DNA from: Methanomassiliicoccus luminyensis B10
GTDB taxonomy: Archaea > Thermoplasmatota > Thermoplasmata > Methanomassiliicoccales > Methanomassiliicoccaceae
Direction: 5' to 3'
DNA length: 64,000 nt
NCBI RefSeq assembly: GCF_000308215.1
Contig: NZ_CAJE01000013.1
Location: forward strand, 124,001 to 188,000
Below the pieces are notes generated by a model. It made no database searches. It saw only the letters and a program-made list of their open reading frames with translations, and was not told where the DNA came from. Shown here piece after piece: positions 43,629-64,000 of this stretch. A program made the translations under genes and the position numbers. Within the stretch, counting starts at the first letter, position 1, and each line of letters opens with the position of its first letter.

Positions 43629-43892
43629 TCAGGCCCGCCCCAGCATCTTCATTCCCTTCTCCGTTATGACGTAGGAAGCACCGCTGGGGGCCGAGCAGCC
43701 GGAGCAGTGGCAGCCCGCGCACGCGGCGGGCTGGCAACCACACGCGGCGGGGTCGCCGGCCTTCAGGACCAGGCCTTTCTCTTCCAGAAGGCCCAGCCTC
43801 TGCCGCACATCCTCCTGGCCGACCCCGAGCTTCTTGGCCATTTCCTCGATGGAGGTCGAGCTGCTCATGGCCTGCAGGGTCTCCCTGATCAT
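43629..43892 (-). CDS. FeoC-like winged-helix protein with Cys-rich segment
   Basis: 87 residues. N-terminal winged helix (IRETLQAMSSSTSIEEMAKKLGVGQEDVRQRLGLLEEKGLVLKA) followed by a cysteine-rich loop ACGCQPAACAGCHCSGCS (seven Cys in 18 residues) and a short wing (YVITEKGMKMLGRA). FeoC proteins have this plan: a winged helix with a cysteine wing that binds an iron-sulfur cluster and tunes FeoB. Last gene of the feo operon, overlapping the membrane protein gene by 4 bases. The Cys cluster is larger than in enteric FeoC. Confidence 0.8.
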   Translation of the reverse strand: MIRETLQAMSSSTSIEEMAKKLGVGQEDVRQRLGLLEEKGLVLKAGDPAACGCQPAACAGCHCSGCSAPSGASYVITEKGMKMLGRA

Positions 43893-44344
43893 TGCTTCAC
43901 CTCCGCTGCCTTTGCCTCAGGGGCGGCCCAGAAGGCCTTCAGCTGGCGGTACAGCAGGGCCAGGGCAGGGACCATCATCACTATGGTAGGGCTGAAGTCA
44001 TCGACCGGGGACCATTCCGCGAAGTCCTCGTTGCCCAGGAGGTACGCCTCAGAGGCGTTGGCGGCAAGAGTGAGCAGCGCCACCAGCCCGATGAACAGCG
44101 CGAGGCCGCAGCCCACCATGAGGAAGGCGTCGCCGTCCCGGCCGGACCTGAACCCCCGGGCCGCGAACAGGAACACCGCGCCTATCACCATGAGCACCAG
44201 GCCGAGCACGAAGTTCCCGCCGGCCGAGAGCCAGTTCATCCAGTCCTCCTTGATCCAACCGGCGGCTATCTCCAGGATGCCCAGGACTATGAATATCGCC
44301 CCCATCGCGAGGGACGCCGCGAACCCTTTGTTGTTGGAACTCAT
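43889..44344 (-). CDS. Membrane protein of the feo operon
   Basis: About 151 residues with four hydrophobic helices (AASLAMGAIFIVLGILEIAAG, GNFVLGLVLMVIGAVFLFAA, AFLMVGCGLALFIGLVALLTLAA, TIVMMVPALALLY) and a charged loop NEDFAEWSPVDDFSP. No family recognised. Lies between feoB and the FeoC-like gene with a 4-base overlap to the latter, so it is surely co-expressed with iron transport. GAGGTGAT just before two in-frame ATGs (44347, 44344). May be an accessory subunit of FeoB; this is inference from position. Confidence 0.75.
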   Translation of the reverse strand: MSSNNKGFAASLAMGAIFIVLGILEIAAGWIKEDWMNWLSAGGNFVLGLVLMVIGAVFLFAARGFRSGRDGDAFLMVGCGLALFIGLVALLTLAANASEAYLLGNEDFAEWSPVDDFSPTIVMMVPALALLYRQLKAFWAAPEAKAAEVKQ

Positions 44345-44354
44345 CATTATCACC

Positions 44355-46331
44355 TCACATCAGGGCGTTGCCCAGATTGAATACCACGAAGGCCACTAAA
44401 TAGGCCACGGCCAGGCTGTAGAACACATGGAACAGTGTCCACTTCCAGGAGCGCGTTTCCCTCCATAGCACGCCTAGCGCGGCGACGCACGGGGTATAGA
44501 TGAGCACGAAGGACATCAGGCCCAGCGCCACCGGGGCGGTCATGCTGGTCTCCAGGACCTCTTCCAGCCCGGCGCCTTCTTCGGCCCCATACAGTACGCC
44601 CAGGGCGCCGACCACGATCTCCTTGGCCAGGAAGCCGAACACCAGAGCGACGGCGATCCTCCAGTCAAAGCCTAGGGGGGCCAGGATAGGCACCAGCAGG
44701 TGGCCCAGCGCGCCGGCGTAGCTCGCCTCGCTGCCGTACTCGACGCCCCACGGGAAGCTGGCCAGGAGCCACACTATCAGCGCGCCCAGCAGGATGAAGG
44801 TACCGGCCTTCTTGATGTACTGGGAACCCCTCTCCCACATGTGGATCAGGGTGCCCTTGAAAATGGGCATGCGATAGGGGGGCAGCTCCATGATAAAGGG
44901 CGAGCTCTCGCCCTTGAGTATGGTGTGCCGGAACAGCAGCGCGGAGCCGATGGCGACCGCTATGCCGAGGATGTACATGCCGAACACCACGGTCCCTGCC
45001 ACGGCGGGGAAGAATATCCCTGCGAACAGGATGTACACGGGGAGCCTGGCAGAGCAGGACATGTACGGGGTCGTAAGTATCGTGATTAGGCGGCTGTTCT
45101 TGTCCTCGATGGTCCTTGAGGCCATTAGAGCGGGGACGTTGCAGCCGAAGCCAAGAAGCATGGGTATGAACGATTTGCCGTGCAGGCCGAGCTTGGACAT
45201 CGCGCGGTCCATGATGAAGGCGGCCCTGGCGAGATAGCCGGAGTCCTCCAGTATGGACAGCATGAGGAACATCACCAGGATGTTGGGGACGAACACCAGC
45301 ACGAAGCCGACGCCGCCGATGATGCCGTCGCCTAACAGGGAAGCGAGCCAGTCAGGCTGCACATTGGCGCCGATCCACTCGGCAAGCCAGGCGAACCCCA
45401 TATCAATGAGCGAGGCAAAGGGGGCCGCTACCGTGAAGGTGAGCTCGAATATGCCCCACATGAGAACAAGGAATATCGGAATGCCCAGCCACTTGTTCGT
45501 GACCACGCGGTCCAGGCTGTCCGAGATAGATCGCTTCTCGACCCCCCTGCGATAGACCTTCCCGAGGGTGGAGGTGATGGCCTCGTACCTCTTGTCCACG
45601 AAGTCCATCTCCATCCCTTCCTTGTCGACGCCGACCAGGGCCGCGTCGAGCTGCTGGGCCGCCGCGGCGTTCTGGGTAAGCTTGGAGGGCTCCTCCATGC
45701 CTTCCATGAGGCGGAGGGCGATCCACCGGAGGGTGGGGGTGTCGAACTGGTTCGCGTGCATGATGCCTTCCAGTTCAGCGACCTTCTTCTCGGCGGCCGC
45801 GCCGAAATCGGTGATCGGTCGCGGGACGGTCTCGTCCTTGAACGTCTTGATGATGGTGTCGAGCAGATCGTTGATGCCCGTCCTCTGCGTCGCGGAGATC
45901 GGTACAGCGGGAATGCCCCACGCCTGCGAGAACTTCTTTACGTCCAGTATGTCCCCGCGGCTTTCCGCCATGTCCGACATGTTGAGCGCGAGCACCACGT
46001 CGAGGCCCATGTCCATAAGCTGGGTGGTGAGGTACAGGTTCCTCTCCAGGTTGGTCGAGTCGACCACCTGCACCACAAGGTCGGGGTGCTCTTTCGTGAT
46101 GAAGTCGTTCGCCACAGCTTCGTCGGGGGACCGCGTGGCCAGGCTGTAAGTGCCCGGCAGGTCCGTGATCTGAAGGACGTAGCCCTTGTGGGGCCGCGAC
46201 CCAGTCTTCTTTTCTATGGTGACGCCGGGCCAATTGCCGACGTGCTGGCGGGAACCCGTCAGCACATTGAAAAGACTGGTCTTTCCGACGTTAGGGTTCC
46301 CTATCAATGCAATTCGAATCTCTTTCTCCAT
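44355..46331 (-). CDS. feoB: Ferrous iron transport protein B
   Basis: Main Fe(II) importer with an N-terminal GTPase. G1 GNPNVGKTSLFN, switch region NWPGVTIE, G3 DLPGTYSLA, G4 NMSD, G5 SATQRTG; then a helical GDI-like part, and two Gate domains with the NVPALMASRTIEDKNSRLITILTTPYMSCSARLPVY segment. 658 residues, slightly shorter than the usual 700-770. Second half has eight or more membrane helices. Follows two feoA genes by 12 bases; controlled by the operator cluster at 46823-46895. Confidence 0.97.
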   Translation of the reverse strand: MEKEIRIALIGNPNVGKTSLFNVLTGSRQHVGNWPGVTIEKKTGSRPHKGYVLQITDLPGTYSLATRSPDEAVANDFITKEHPDLVVQVVDSTNLERNLYLTTQLMDMGLDVVLALNMSDMAESRGDILDVKKFSQAWGIPAVPISATQRTGINDLLDTIIKTFKDETVPRPITDFGAAAEKKVAELEGIMHANQFDTPTLRWIALRLMEGMEEPSKLTQNAAAAQQLDAALVGVDKEGMEMDFVDKRYEAITSTLGKVYRRGVEKRSISDSLDRVVTNKWLGIPIFLVLMWGIFELTFTVAAPFASLIDMGFAWLAEWIGANVQPDWLASLLGDGIIGGVGFVLVFVPNILVMFLMLSILEDSGYLARAAFIMDRAMSKLGLHGKSFIPMLLGFGCNVPALMASRTIEDKNSRLITILTTPYMSCSARLPVYILFAGIFFPAVAGTVVFGMYILGIAVAIGSALLFRHTILKGESSPFIMELPPYRMPIFKGTLIHMWERGSQYIKKAGTFILLGALIVWLLASFPWGVEYGSEASYAGALGHLLVPILAPLGFDWRIAVALVFGFLAKEIVVGALGVLYGAEEGAGLEEVLETSMTAPVALGLMSFVLIYTPCVAALGVLWRETRSWKWTLFHVFYSLAVAYLVAFVVFNLGNALM

Positions 46332-46343
46332 AAACCCACCCGA

Positions 46344-46568
46344 TCAACAAACCATGATCTGGCTGGCCACGCCCCTGCTGAGGGCGAGGCGAGAACCGTT
46401 GACGCCCACGATAAGGCCCTTTCCGTCTGCCTTGAGGACCGTCACGCGAGCGTCGTTGACGAACCCCATCTCCCGGAGCCTAGTGGAGATGGGGTTGCTC
46501 CCGCGGACCTCCTGTACCATGCACTCAGCGCCTTCGGCGGCCATGGCAAGGGGCATCGAGGTGTTCAT
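46344..46568 (-). CDS. feoA: Ferrous iron transport protein A (second copy)
   Basis: 74 residues, SH3-like fold: MVQEVRGSNPISTRLREMGFVNDARVTVLKADGKGLIVGVNGSRLALSRGVASQIMV with the family motif RLREMGF. Cytosolic helper of FeoB. Its ATG overlaps the stop of the preceding feoA by 4 bases. Two tandem, diverged feoA genes before feoB are common in archaea and anaerobes. Confidence 0.93.
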   Translation of the reverse strand: MNTSMPLAMAAEGAECMVQEVRGSNPISTRLREMGFVNDARVTVLKADGKGLIVGVNGSRLALSRGVASQIMVC

Positions 46569-46810
46569 GCCTTGGCCTCCTTGACATTGACCACTATCGT
46601 GGCGGCATCGGCGTTCCGGAGAGAGATATTGTAGCCTCTTACCAGGAACTCCAGGGGATCGTTGAGAGGGGCCTTCCGGACCATGGTGATCTGAGCCCCT
46701 GGACAGAGCCCCATTTCGGCGATCCTGCGCCGCACCGGGCCTTTAGCCTCAACGCTGACGATGACCGCAGAATTGCCGGGCGCTAACTTGTCAAGGGTCG
46801 TGTTGCTCAT
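46565..46810 (-). CDS. feoA: Ferrous iron transport protein A (first copy)
   Basis: 81 residues: LDKLAPGNSAVIVSVEAKGPVRRRIAEMGLCPGAQITMVRKAPLNDPLEFLVRGYNISLRNADAATIVV, with the canonical RRRIAEMGL and the LNDPLEF..RGYNISLR pattern of FeoA. First gene of feoA-feoA-feoB-membrane-feoC. GGTGAG lies 3 bases before ATG. The leader from about 46847 contains degenerate copies of the TTTAGG-N4-CCTAAA palindrome. Confidence 0.95.
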   Translation of the reverse strand: MSNTTLDKLAPGNSAVIVSVEAKGPVRRRIAEMGLCPGAQITMVRKAPLNDPLEFLVRGYNISLRNADAATIVVNVKEAKA

Positions 46811-46822
46811 TTTCTCACCATT

Positions 46823-46895
46823 TTTCGGACTGCCTAAGCTTTTTCTTCGGATACCCTAAAACCCGATGAGGTATATAAATTTAGGCCTTCCTAAA
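46823..46895. promoter_or_regulatory. Three-site operator cluster at the feo promoter (iron-type box)
   Basis: The best site TTTAGG-CCTT-CCTAAA (46880-46895) directly abuts the minus-strand TATA box (TTTATATA, 46872-46879). A second, degenerate site CTTCGG-ATAC-CCTAAA (46845-46860) covers the expected transcription start, and a third TTTCGG-ACTG-CCTAAG (46823-46838) lies in the leader. All share 6-4-6 geometry, which resembles DtxR/IdeR boxes (TTAGG...CCTAA). The perfect form of the same box occurs at 59954. Iron repression by a DtxR-family protein is inferred; none is encoded in the window. Confidence 0.7.
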
Positions 46896-59953: not shown

Positions 59954-59971
59954 ATTTAGGATATCCTAAAT
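59954..59971. promoter_or_regulatory. Perfect 18-bp palindrome (iron-type box) at the ABC operon promoter
   Basis: ATTTAGGATATCCTAAAT is a perfect palindrome and contains TTTAGG-N4-CCTAAA, the same as the main feo operator at 46880. It lies about 30 bases after a TATA box (CTTTTATAG, 59922-59930), so it covers the expected transcription start, and ends 17 bases before the ATG of the ABC gene. Repression by a DtxR-type protein with iron or manganese is inferred. Confidence 0.75.
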
Positions 59972-59987: not shown

Positions 59988-61817
59988 ATGGAGAAGAAGT
60001 CCACGCTGGGACGATTGATGCAGTTCACTACGAACTGCCGGGGAAAGATCAATGCATCGGTATTGCTGGCCGTGATCGGCGTCGCCGCGGGGATGGTTCC
60101 CTACTTTGCCGCCGCCGAGATCGTGATCGCGCTCTTTGAAGGCGGAAGGGACACCGGGTTCTACGTGCTGTGGTGCGGCGTCGCGCTGGCAGGCCTCATC
60201 TCCAAGGTGGTCCTCATGAACGTGTCCACCGCGCTCTCTCACGCCGCGGCGTTCCAGACGCTGAAAGAGATACGACTGGCCATAGCTTCCAAGCTGACCA
60301 GGGTCCCCATGGGGTACCTCTTGGAAACCCCGTCGGGAAAGTTGAAGAACACCACGGTCGACAAGGTAGAAAGCCTGGAGATCACCCTGGCCCACATCCT
60401 TCCCGAGATGACCTCCAACATACTGGTCCCGATATTCATCATCGCGTACATGTTCACACTGGACTGGCGCATGGCCCTGGCCTCCCTGGCCACCCTGCCC
60501 CTGGGGCTCCTCTGTTTCATGCTCATGATGAGGGGGTACACGAAGAGATGGAACGAGTACACCGCCGCGAGGAACCACATGGAGTCGACGGTGGTGGAGT
60601 ACGTGAACGGCATCGAGGTCATCAAGGCGTTCAGCCAGTCCGCCAACTCGTACCAGAAGTTCACTGACGCGGTGAAGGGGAACGCCCGCGCCGCCCTGGA
60701 CTGGATGAAGGACATGCAGGTCTACTTCTCGCTGGGGCAGGCCATCTGGCCGTCCGTCCTGGTGGCAGTATTGCCGATAGGGTGCTGGCTGATGATTAAC
60801 GGAGCGCTGCCGGCCTGGACCTTCATAACCATAATGATCCTGTCCCTGGGCATAGTCGGCCCGATGGTCGCAGCGGTGTCGTTCACCGACCCCCTTGCCC
60901 AGGTGGGCACGGTCCTGGGGGAGATATTCGAGGTCCTGGACGAACCGGAGCTGGCCCGGCCCCAGGACGAGAAAGAACTGAAGGGCACCGAGATAGTGCT
61001 CAAGGATGTGACCTTCGCGTACAAGGACAAGCAGGTGCTGAAGGGCGTGGACCTTGCTGTCGAGCCCGGAACGGTCACCGCGCTGGTGGGCCCATCGGGC
61101 AGCGGGAAGTCCACCATCGCGAAGCTGATCGCCGGATTCTGGGACGTCCAGGGCGGCAGCGTCACCCTGGGCGGCGTGAACATCAAGGACATCCCCTCGC
61201 ACCAGCTCATGAACAATATCGCGTACGTGTCCCAGGACAGCTATCTCTTCGACGACACGGTCCGGGAGAACATCAGGATGGGCAGGACCGCCGCCACCGA
61301 CGAGGAGGTGGAGAAAGCGGCCAAGGCCTGCGGCTGCCACGACTTCATCATGGACCTGGAGAAAGGCTACGACACCAGGGTGGGCAGCTCCGGCGGACAG
61401 CTTTCGGGGGGCGAGAGGCAGAGGGTGGCCATCGCCCGGGCCATGCTCAAGAACGCGCCGATAGTCGTCTTCGATGAGGCCACCGCCTATACCGACCCGG
61501 AGAACGAGGCGCTGGTCCAGTCCGCCGTGGCCAAGCTCGTGCAGGGAAGGACGCTCATAGTCATCGCCCACCGGCTCTCCACCATCGTCGACTCCGACAA
61601 GATCGTGGTGGTGAACGACGGGAGCATCGCGGCCACGGGCACTCACGACGAGCTGCTCGAGAAGTGCGGTCTTTACCGGAGCATGTGGAAGTCGCACATC
61701 GGCGCGAGGGACAGCTCCGAGCCGGTGGCCGCGCCCCGGAGGAGCGCGAGCAAGGAAGGGGGATGCCTGGGTCCGAAGGACGCTTCCAAGGGGCGCCCGT
61801 ACCCGGGGGAGGCGTAG
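59988..61817 (+). CDS. ABC half-transporter, exporter fold (first of heterodimer)
   Basis: 609 residues: six membrane helices (about 20-300) then a nucleotide-binding domain (about 340-575). Walker A GPSGSGKSTIAKLIAGFW, Q-loop YVSQDSYLFDD, signature LSGGERQRVAIARAM, Walker B IVVFDEATAYTDPENE with catalytic Glu, H-loop IAHRLSTI. The DEATAYTDPENE wording, as I recall it, is like the YbtPQ/IrtAB group, exporter-fold proteins that import siderophores. A 30-residue Ser/Gly-rich tail follows. TAG stop is 2 bases before the next ATG. Under the iron-type palindrome at 59954. Confidence 0.9.
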   Translation: MEKKSTLGRLMQFTTNCRGKINASVLLAVIGVAAGMVPYFAAAEIVIALFEGGRDTGFYVLWCGVALAGLISKVVLMNVSTALSHAAAFQTLKEIRLAIASKLTRVPMGYLLETPSGKLKNTTVDKVESLEITLAHILPEMTSNILVPIFIIAYMFTLDWRMALASLATLPLGLLCFMLMMRGYTKRWNEYTAARNHMESTVVEYVNGIEVIKAFSQSANSYQKFTDAVKGNARAALDWMKDMQVYFSLGQAIWPSVLVAVLPIGCWLMINGALPAWTFITIMILSLGIVGPMVAAVSFTDPLAQVGTVLGEIFEVLDEPELARPQDEKELKGTEIVLKDVTFAYKDKQVLKGVDLAVEPGTVTALVGPSGSGKSTIAKLIAGFWDVQGGSVTLGGVNIKDIPSHQLMNNIAYVSQDSYLFDDTVRENIRMGRTAATDEEVEKAAKACGCHDFIMDLEKGYDTRVGSSGGQLSGGERQRVAIARAMLKNAPIVVFDEATAYTDPENEALVQSAVAKLVQGRTLIVIAHRLSTIVDSDKIVVVNDGSIAATGTHDELLEKCGLYRSMWKSHIGARDSSEPVAAPRRSASKEGGCLGPKDASKGRPYPGEA

Positions 61818-61819
61818 AC

Positions 61820-63565
61820 ATGCTCGGCTCGCTCCGTAAGATATATGATTTCGCGGGAAAGAACAGATACAGGCTGACCCGGAGCATCGTCTTCGGCGTA
61901 CTGAGCTCGTTCTTCAATGTGCTCATGCTCCTGGCCATCGCGGTGGTCCTCAGCGCGCTGATCGACGGCTCCATCGGAACGGGGACGGCGCTGCTGTCGC
62001 TGGCCGTAATGATCGTGAGCATATGCGGGAAGTTCGCGTTCGGCTATTTCGGGGACTACAACAAGAACGCGTCCGGCTGGCAGATGTGCGCCGACAAGCG
62101 CATTGAGATCGGGGACCGCATGAAGTACATGCCCATGGGGTACTTCAACCAGAACAACCTGGGCAAGATCTCTTCCGCCGTCACCACCACGATGTTCGAC
62201 ATCGAGGTCATCGCCCCCATGCTCATGGAGACCGTCATCCACGGCATCATTCACACCCTGATCCTGACCGCCGCCATCCTGGTGTTCGATTGGAGGATCG
62301 GGCTCATCGCGGTAGCAGGGATCGCCGCGTTCTCCGCCGTCAACTCGCTCATGCTGCGCAGGTCCCATATCTACGGGCCGCGGAGGCAGGCAGCGCAGGC
62401 CGATCTGGTGGAGACCACCCTGGAGTACATCCAGGGGATCAGCGTCCTCCGGTCGTTCAACCTGGCGGGCTCCAGGAACGAGAAGTTCCGCAATGCCGCG
62501 GATGGCAGCATGAACGGCAGCCTGCGCATGGAGAAGGCCATGATCCCGCTGGTAGCGCTCCAGCAATCGGTGCTGCGGGTCACCAGCGCGGCCATCATCC
62601 TGGCCTCGGTCCTGTTCTACCTGGACGGGACCATGGGCCTGGCGATATGCGTCATCATGGTCATCTCGTCGTTCATACTGTTCGAGCAGCTGGACCGGTC
62701 CGGCAGCAAGGCCTCCCTGCTCAGGGCCATCGACGTCTCCATCGATCGGGTCAGGGAGCTGGACAAGACCCCGGTCATGGATGTCGACGGCGAGGCCATT
62801 ACTCCGACGGATCATGACATCGTGATAAGGAACGTCGATTTCTCGTACGGGGAGAAGAGGGTGCTGCATGACATCAACATCAGGATCCCCGAGGGAACGA
62901 CCACGGCCATCGTGGGCCCCTCCGGCAGCGGGAAGTCCACGCTGTGCAAGCTCATCGCGAGGTTCTGGGATGTCAGCGGGGGAAGCATTACTCTCGGCGG
63001 CAGGAACGTGAAGGACTACACCCTGGACAGCCTGCTGAGCAACATCAGCATGGTATTCCAGAACGTGTACCTGTTCAACGACACCATCGCCAACAACATC
63101 AAGTTCGGCAAGCCCCACGCCACCATGGAGGAGGTCGTCGAAGCGGCCAGGAAGGCCTGCTGCCACGATTTCATCATGAGCCTGGATAACGGCTACGACG
63201 CCGTGATAGGGGAGGGAGGCGCCACCATCTCCGGCGGGGAGAAGCAGCGCATCTCCATCGCCCGGGCGATCCTGAAGGACGCGCCGATAATCTTACTTGA
63301 CGAGGCCACTGCGAACGTCGACCCCGAGAACGAGAGCAAGCTCCAGGAGGCCATCGCCGAGCTGACGCGGGACAAGACCATCATCATGATCGCGCACCGC
63401 CTGAACACGGTGAGGAACGCGGACCAGATAATCGTCCTGGACAACGGCGAGATCGTTCAGAGGGGCACCCACGACGAGCTCATGGGCCAGGAGGGGATCT
63501 ACGCGGACTTCGTCAACATCCGCAGGGAGGCCATTGGCTGGAAGCTCAAGGTGAGACCGGCCTGA
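61820..63565 (+). CDS. ABC half-transporter, exporter fold (second of heterodimer)
   Basis: 581 residues from ATG 61820 (reading upstream overlaps the previous gene without similarity). Six helices (NVLMLLAIAVVLSALI ..., IHTLILTAAILVFDW, LAICVIMVISSFILFEQL), NBD with Walker A GPSGSGKSTLCKLIARFW, Q-loop MVFQNVYLFND, signature ISGGEKQRISIARAI, Walker B IILLDEATANVDPENE, H-loop IAHRLNTV. Both ATP sites of the pair look intact. Partner of the preceding gene; followed 102 bases later by an ECF S-component, an arrangement known in Firmicutes and other gut anaerobes. Confidence 0.9.
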   Translation: MLGSLRKIYDFAGKNRYRLTRSIVFGVLSSFFNVLMLLAIAVVLSALIDGSIGTGTALLSLAVMIVSICGKFAFGYFGDYNKNASGWQMCADKRIEIGDRMKYMPMGYFNQNNLGKISSAVTTTMFDIEVIAPMLMETVIHGIIHTLILTAAILVFDWRIGLIAVAGIAAFSAVNSLMLRRSHIYGPRRQAAQADLVETTLEYIQGISVLRSFNLAGSRNEKFRNAADGSMNGSLRMEKAMIPLVALQQSVLRVTSAAIILASVLFYLDGTMGLAICVIMVISSFILFEQLDRSGSKASLLRAIDVSIDRVRELDKTPVMDVDGEAITPTDHDIVIRNVDFSYGEKRVLHDINIRIPEGTTTAIVGPSGSGKSTLCKLIARFWDVSGGSITLGGRNVKDYTLDSLLSNISMVFQNVYLFNDTIANNIKFGKPHATMEEVVEAARKACCHDFIMSLDNGYDAVIGEGGATISGGEKQRISIARAILKDAPIILLDEATANVDPENESKLQEAIAELTRDKTIIMIAHRLNTVRNADQIIVLDNGEIVQRGTHDELMGQEGIYADFVNIRREAIGWKLKVRPA

Positions 63566-63667: not shown

Positions 63668-64000
63668 ATGGAAAAACTGACAACGAAGGACTTGGTAACT
63701 ACGGGCATTTACTCGGCAATATTCTTCATCATCAATATGGCTATGATGATGCTCACGGGGATAGCTCCGATCCTGTGGCTGGCGATGGCGCCGGTCCTCG
63801 GGCTCCTGTGCGGCGTCATCTACATGATGCTGATAACCAAGGTGCAGAAGTTCGGCCCCGTGCTCATCATGGGCATGATCGTTGCGGTCATCTACTTCGC
63901 CACGGGCGGGTTCACCTGGATGATACTGGCCACCTTCGCGGTGTGCGGCCTGGTGGCCGAGCTCATACGATATGCGTTCGGATATCAGAGCTTCAAGGGC
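63668..64000 (+). CDS. ECF transporter S-component, MptD/Trep_Strep-like family (partial)
   Basis: The first 111 residues are visible: MEKLTTKDLVTTGIYSAIFFIINMAMMML, then helices around PILWLAMAPVLGLLCGVIYMML, GPVLIMGMIVAVIYFATGGFTWMIL and a final ATFAVCGLVAELIRY. The start LTTKDLVTTGIYSA and the helix pattern match the putative S-components of the MptD/Trep_Strep type, which bind a small substrate for an energy-coupling-factor importer. GGAG lies about 11 bases before ATG. EcfA/EcfT genes may follow beyond the window. Substrate unknown; iron-chelate or related is suggested by the upstream operator. Confidence 0.75.
   Translation, partial: MEKLTTKDLVTTGIYSAIFFIINMAMMMLTGIAPILWLAMAPVLGLLCGVIYMMLITKVQKFGPVLIMGMIVAVIYFATGGFTWMILATFAVCGLVAELIRYAFGYQSFKG

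Follow-up and report, generated by a model that had tools for sequence, protein, structure and literature searches.

Predicted single-dimer DtxR-type operators at the feo promoter of Methanomassiliicoccus luminyensis and across its order

Leyn and Rodionov are said to have described archaeal DtxR regulons by comparative genomics in 2015, pairing, as here, a DtxR-family motif with a metal-gene regulon. In Archaeoglobus fulgidus, the repressor MDR1 is likewise a DtxR-type, metal-dependent protein at an archaeal metal-transport promoter, where it acts at RNA polymerase recruitment (the step at which we propose that the present system would act; PMC2995911, PMC4158304); it reportedly uses more than one operator, as appears to be the case at the promoter studied here. 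Unlike the MDR1 system, however, the array described below also places one site over the BRE/TATA region, and the regulon covers feo, Fec-type and haem genes, and flavodoxin. Halobacterium Idr1 and Idr2 and Haloferax Idr, SirR, and TroR are archaeal DtxR-family iron regulators as well, but those organisms carry several DtxR paralogues, whereas a single DtxR is found here (PMC11349517). The closest counterpart of the operator itself is the 14-bp single-dimer (half) site of IdeR in Saccharopolyspora erythraea, with the consensus TTAGGNNNNCCTAA (PMC8464063). That site shares its core motif, its spacer length, and an iron-type DtxR protein with the present system; in S. erythraea it is an exception among 19-bp two-dimer boxes, whereas here it serves as the standard operator, and separate copies of it often surround an archaeal TATA box. 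The role of the single-dimer site in IdeR species has been listed as an open question (PMC10317159); the analysis that follows presents it as the predicted standard operator of an archaeal order, and provides a methanogen lineage with a concrete iron regulon that can be put to the test.

We considered a stretch of 64,000 nucleotides from M. luminyensis B10 (hereafter, the window), taken from a genome whose gene content is archaeal (topoisomerase VI, class I lysyl-tRNA synthetase) and which carries mcrA, marking it as that of a methanogen. An initial annotation had proposed three palindromes of the type TTTAGG-N4-CCTAAA at the feo promoter, spaced by 35 and 22 bp and placed against the TATA box, over the start, and in the leader of feoA. 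All three are present at those coordinates (Table 1), with centre-to-centre distances of 35 bp between operators 1 and 2 and 22 bp between operators 2 and 3. Read toward feoA on the minus strand, the order is operator 1, TATA box, operator 2, operator 3, and the feoA ATG at 46810. Operator 1 abuts the TATA box, so that its downstream half, CCTAAA, occupies the position of the BRE, and operator 3 falls within the feoA leader. An archaeal start is expected approximately 26–27 bp below the TATA box (PMC4158304), which, counted from the centre of the box, puts the predicted feo start at about 46849, inside operator 2; the proposed placement thus agrees with the minus-strand positions, the start being a predicted one. 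The operon closes with a small winged-helix protein that, judging from its position, may be FeoC-like. The claim that the best site is common to feo and the ABC/ECF operon is likewise borne out by a second perfect copy in the window, and behind the two ABC proteins downstream of that copy come genes for Trep_Strep, CbiQ, and an ATPase component, of which the first starts at 63668 and the others lie past the end of the window.

Table 1. Coordinates, in the window, of the features of the feo and ABC/ECF operons.
Feature	Position	Strand	Basis or description
Operator 1 (position B)	46880..46895	-	TTTAGGCCTTCCTAAA, 0 mismatches to TTTAGG-N4-CCTAAA
TATA box of the feo promoter	46872..46879	-	TTTATATA, assigned from sequence
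Operator 2 (position S)	46845..46860	-	CTTCGGATACCCTAAA / TTTAGGGTATCCGAAG, 2 mismatches
Operator 3 (leader)	46823..46838	-	TTTCGGACTGCCTAAG / CTTAGGCAGTCCGAAA, 2 mismatches
feoA1, FeoA domain protein	46565..46810	-	Pfam PF04023, E 1e-21
feoA2, FeoA domain protein	46344..46568	-	Pfam PF04023, E 9e-18
feoB, ferrous iron transporter	44355..46331	-	Pfam PF02421, PF07670, PF07664
Membrane-type protein, apparently a feo operon member	43889..44353	-	Without Pfam match
Small winged-helix protein, end of the feo operon	43629..43892	-	Cys-rich stretch CGCQPAACAGCHCSGC; sub-threshold HTH match only
Perfect operator preceding the ABC/ECF operon	59955..59970	+	TTTAGGATATCCTAAA, ~25 bp below a TATA-like box
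ABC transporter protein 1	59988..61817	+	Membrane and ATPase domains (Pfam)
ABC transporter protein 2	61820..63565	+	Pfam

Because counts within the window at up to three mismatches are not significant (11 sites found versus 7.2 expected, with 9 of 100 shuffles as high), we relied on genome-wide tests. In the 2.62-Mb genome the perfect motif, which matches the IdeR single-dimer consensus, occurs 12 times versus approximately 0.05 expected from composition, and the reversed-pattern control has no perfect match anywhere in the genome. Rather than being equally frequent at random intergenic regions, the perfect motif is confined to eight upstream regions, most of them before iron, metal, or redox genes. 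The initial annotation had described a small regulon visible within the window; the shared operator stands, but the regulon extends well beyond the window to all 12 perfect sites. Sites with two mismatches form a background elsewhere in the genome that is not visibly associated with metal genes.

Since operators 2 and 3 carry two mismatches each, and the window holds no clear excess of sites at up to three mismatches, one might suppose that only the perfect operator 1 works and that the two weaker copies reflect chance or decay. We regard this as highly improbable: When the perfect site is set aside and the feo intergenic region is shuffled 20,000 times, no shuffled version contains two sites of two or fewer mismatches, the same 35-bp pair recurs at the fec promoter with both sites perfect, and the position and spacing of the sites are kept in orthologous promoters, one of which (in genome G012) carries three perfect copies. 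Nor does the earlier description of the weaker sites as degenerate fit their sequences: The half-site variant that they carry (TTCGG/CCGAA) is conserved, being present in genomes G014 and G011 as well, and does not reflect decay.

The family comparison drew on the feo promoters of five other genomes, located through FeoB orthologues that are 67–72% identical. Operators 1 and 2 are present in all six family promoters, flanking a TATA-like box, and lie 35 bp apart in five and 33 bp apart in the sixth. Operator 3 is found in four of the six, including that of M. luminyensis, at 22 bp below operator 2 (21 bp in G012), and is absent from genus g2 among these six promoters. On the scale of the order, a scan of 147 genomes for the perfect motif returned 183 occurrences in 81 genomes versus 14 for the reversed control, and M. 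luminyensis, with its 12, has the most. Perfect pairs occur in 14 genomes of the order (control, 0), and the genes behind them include FeoA, a FeoB operon, flavodoxin, DUF3793, and DtxR. The gap of each pair contains an A+T-rich, TATA-like box, except in a 19-bp flavodoxin pair of M. luminyensis and a 21-bp pair of G012. Pairs are spaced by 26–31 bp in other families and by 35 or 44 bp in the family of M. luminyensis. The motif also stands upstream of dtxR itself, in seven genomes of genus g16, where 50–52 bp separate it from the DtxR match, and in G132, where a perfect pair directly precedes the gene, and its presence there in these eight listed genomes ties the motif to its regulator.

These spacings do not support the description of the copies as phased. 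At feo, 35 bp corresponds to 3.33 helical turns and 22 bp to 2.10, and helical phase was set aside as the cause of the spacing, as distances across the order run from 1.8 to 5.1 turns and cover all phases. The constraint looks instead like one imposed by the core promoter, and the pairs across the order leave space for a TATA box between the sites. The classical 19-bp two-dimer DtxR/IdeR box (TTAGGTTAGSCTAACCTAA, in which palindromes overlap with a 5-bp offset) was also considered and rejected: The spacers lack inner repeats, and the sites are separate, at 19, 22, 35, 44, or 54 bp from one another.

In the M. luminyensis genome, perfect sites precede feoA-feoA-feoB and two Fec-type loci. The first of these (C14:53768/53803) has two perfect sites 35 bp apart, as at feo, with a TATA box between them, and encodes a secreted protein, Peripla_BP_2, FecCD, a radical SAM protein, an ATPase, and ChuX/HutX; the second (Peripla_BP_2-FecCD-ATPase and further ABC proteins) has two perfect sites 44 bp apart. 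A perfect site also lies upstream of the ABC/ECF operon (the second site of the window), of another ABC pair on contig C17, and of a ZIP transporter, while two, 19 bp apart, precede a flavodoxin gene that is followed by DUF3793. Operators thus precede genes for iron uptake and iron sparing, as in a DtxR/IdeR-type regulon, with one region unexplained: a pair of perfect sites 54 bp apart (C14:68367/68421) with no recognisable gene near, which counts against a DtxR assignment. Sites with one mismatch stand directly before a methyltransferase gene and, at C19:19545, approximately 90 bp before a CDF cation-efflux gene; the latter runs into the 3' part of the gene before it and could be a chance occurrence.

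Exactly one protein in the genome carries both DtxR domains above cut-off (PF01325 and PF02742; C14:53123-53503, minus strand), so the absence of a DtxR-family protein, the other finding that could have spoken against the proposed dimer, does not apply. Its gene adjoins, and is divergent from, the two-site fec operon, and the protein bears a C-terminal FeoA/SH3 domain. When it is aligned to DtxR, Met10, His79, Glu83, His98, Cys102, Glu105, and His106 are all present, the iron-type ligand set. Autoregulation of dtxR in M. luminyensis is not supported, as the sites closest to the gene are those of the divergent fec promoter, approximately 270–320 bp upstream. One could envisage a regulator that senses Mn(II) instead of Fe(II), or both, and a general divalent-metal regulon, given the ZIP transporter among the targets and the near-perfect site before the CDF gene; we consider this unlikely, as Met10 and Cys102 are iron-type ligands like those of DtxR and IdeR, and the majority of the targets are genes for iron, haem, or iron sparing.

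The genome also encodes two Fur-family proteins (on contig C20), which counts against assigning the sites to DtxR, as Fur commonly controls iron uptake and could be what reads otherwise genuine operators. The motif is one that we take to be unlike a Fur box. Together with its agreement with the published single-dimer IdeR/DtxR consensus (PMC8464063) and its position just upstream of dtxR elsewhere in the order, this makes a Fur-family reader very improbable. The three palindromes at feo are instead, very probably, operators of the genome's single DtxR-family iron sensor, predicted to control a regulon of iron-uptake and iron-sparing genes. The DtxR-type dimer first suggested for them is supported by the restricted distribution of the motif, the presence of one DtxR, the array kept in relatives, the motif before dtxR in relatives, and the match to the IdeR consensus. 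Taken as a whole, the system is well supported as an ordinary DtxR iron regulon, a new example of a known form of control with an informative promoter layout.

We infer Fe(II)-dependent binding, occlusion of the BRE/TATA and start regions, and repression. With ample Fe(II), DtxR dimers loaded with metal would bind the 16-bp sites separately, covering the BRE/TATA region, the start region, and a stretch of the leader with one dimer each, and would block TFB/TBP and RNA polymerase, turning feoA-feoA-feoB off; when iron is scarce, the dimers would be released. The same operator would control Fec-type uptake, the haem genes, the ABC/ECF operon, ZIP, and flavodoxin. Several dimers on sites of differing strength would be expected to tighten the repression of feo or to grade it more finely, and graded repression by multiple sites is plausible. 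MDR1, a relative of DtxR in archaea, is cited as repressing through the exclusion of RNA polymerase (PMC2995911, PMC4158304), although sites upstream of the BRE can activate for other archaeal regulators (PMC2995911), which counts against a purely repressive role. DtxR might accordingly bind as proposed, with position B activating (or the array acting in both directions) and only position S and the leader site repressing: Archaeal Lrp-type activators have a dimer site just upstream of the BRE (PMC2995911), and mycobacterial genes activated by IdeR typically have several IdeR boxes (PMC10317159). We think this quite unlikely, as the site at position B extends over the BRE position itself and is not placed ahead of it, and as iron sensors act as repressors of uptake genes, to which the targets here belong.

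The M. luminyensis DtxR is only approximately 45% identical (best segment) to the usual DtxR of its own family and is not its orthologue, which counts against the DtxR assignment; it is 68–74% identical to proteins of other families (genomes G025, G126, and G136), with which a tree groups it at support 1.0 (the outgroup DtxR letters in this tree were partly typed by hand, and ligand positions were checked against the DtxR alignment). The usual family protein (loci L149-L161) is encoded beside a second feoB (feoB2) and has Asp10/Met102, an unusual pair, in place of Met10/Cys102, and this dtxR-feoB2 arrangement is absent from the M. luminyensis genome, which is 99.7% complete. Both DtxR types share the recognition-helix motif SPASVTE. 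The simplest reading of this distribution is that dtxR was replaced, by transfer or differential loss, while the operators were kept, which would offer a natural case of operators outliving a change of regulator; this apparent swap and the order-wide TATA-bracketing pairs give the locus added interest. We tentatively suggest, as a possibility somewhat short of even, that single-dimer DtxR sites across the order, arranged as TATA-bracketing pairs or triplets with lineage-specific spacing, form a core-promoter clamp, and that the feo array persisted when its cognate DtxR gave way to a distant one (approximately 69% identical to proteins of other families and 45% to those of its own) that bears the same SPASVTE motif.

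Several further observations concern genes near these operators. The radical SAM and ChuX/HutX proteins lie within a methanogen Fec-type operon (L021:10314-13028, G000 C14), a gene set that looks like one for anaerobic haem use. DUF3793 is found repeatedly behind DtxR-type operators, after flavodoxin in M. luminyensis (L023:6321-6902, G000 C12) and directly behind pairs in G078 and G113 (loci L270 and L277), which suggests a role in iron starvation. At the pair without a recognisable gene (L022:4368-4437; G000 C14:68367-68436), the first operator adjoins a TATA-like box, and an ORF of 81–97 aa with no Pfam match starts approximately 220–270 bp downstream; an unannotated small gene or RNA behind this pair is possible. 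At loci L272, L274, and L269, operator pairs also occur close to a gene for an AAA ATPase (in G094, where it matches Pfam ATPase_2, and similarly in G090) and before a dockerin-containing secreted protein in G066.
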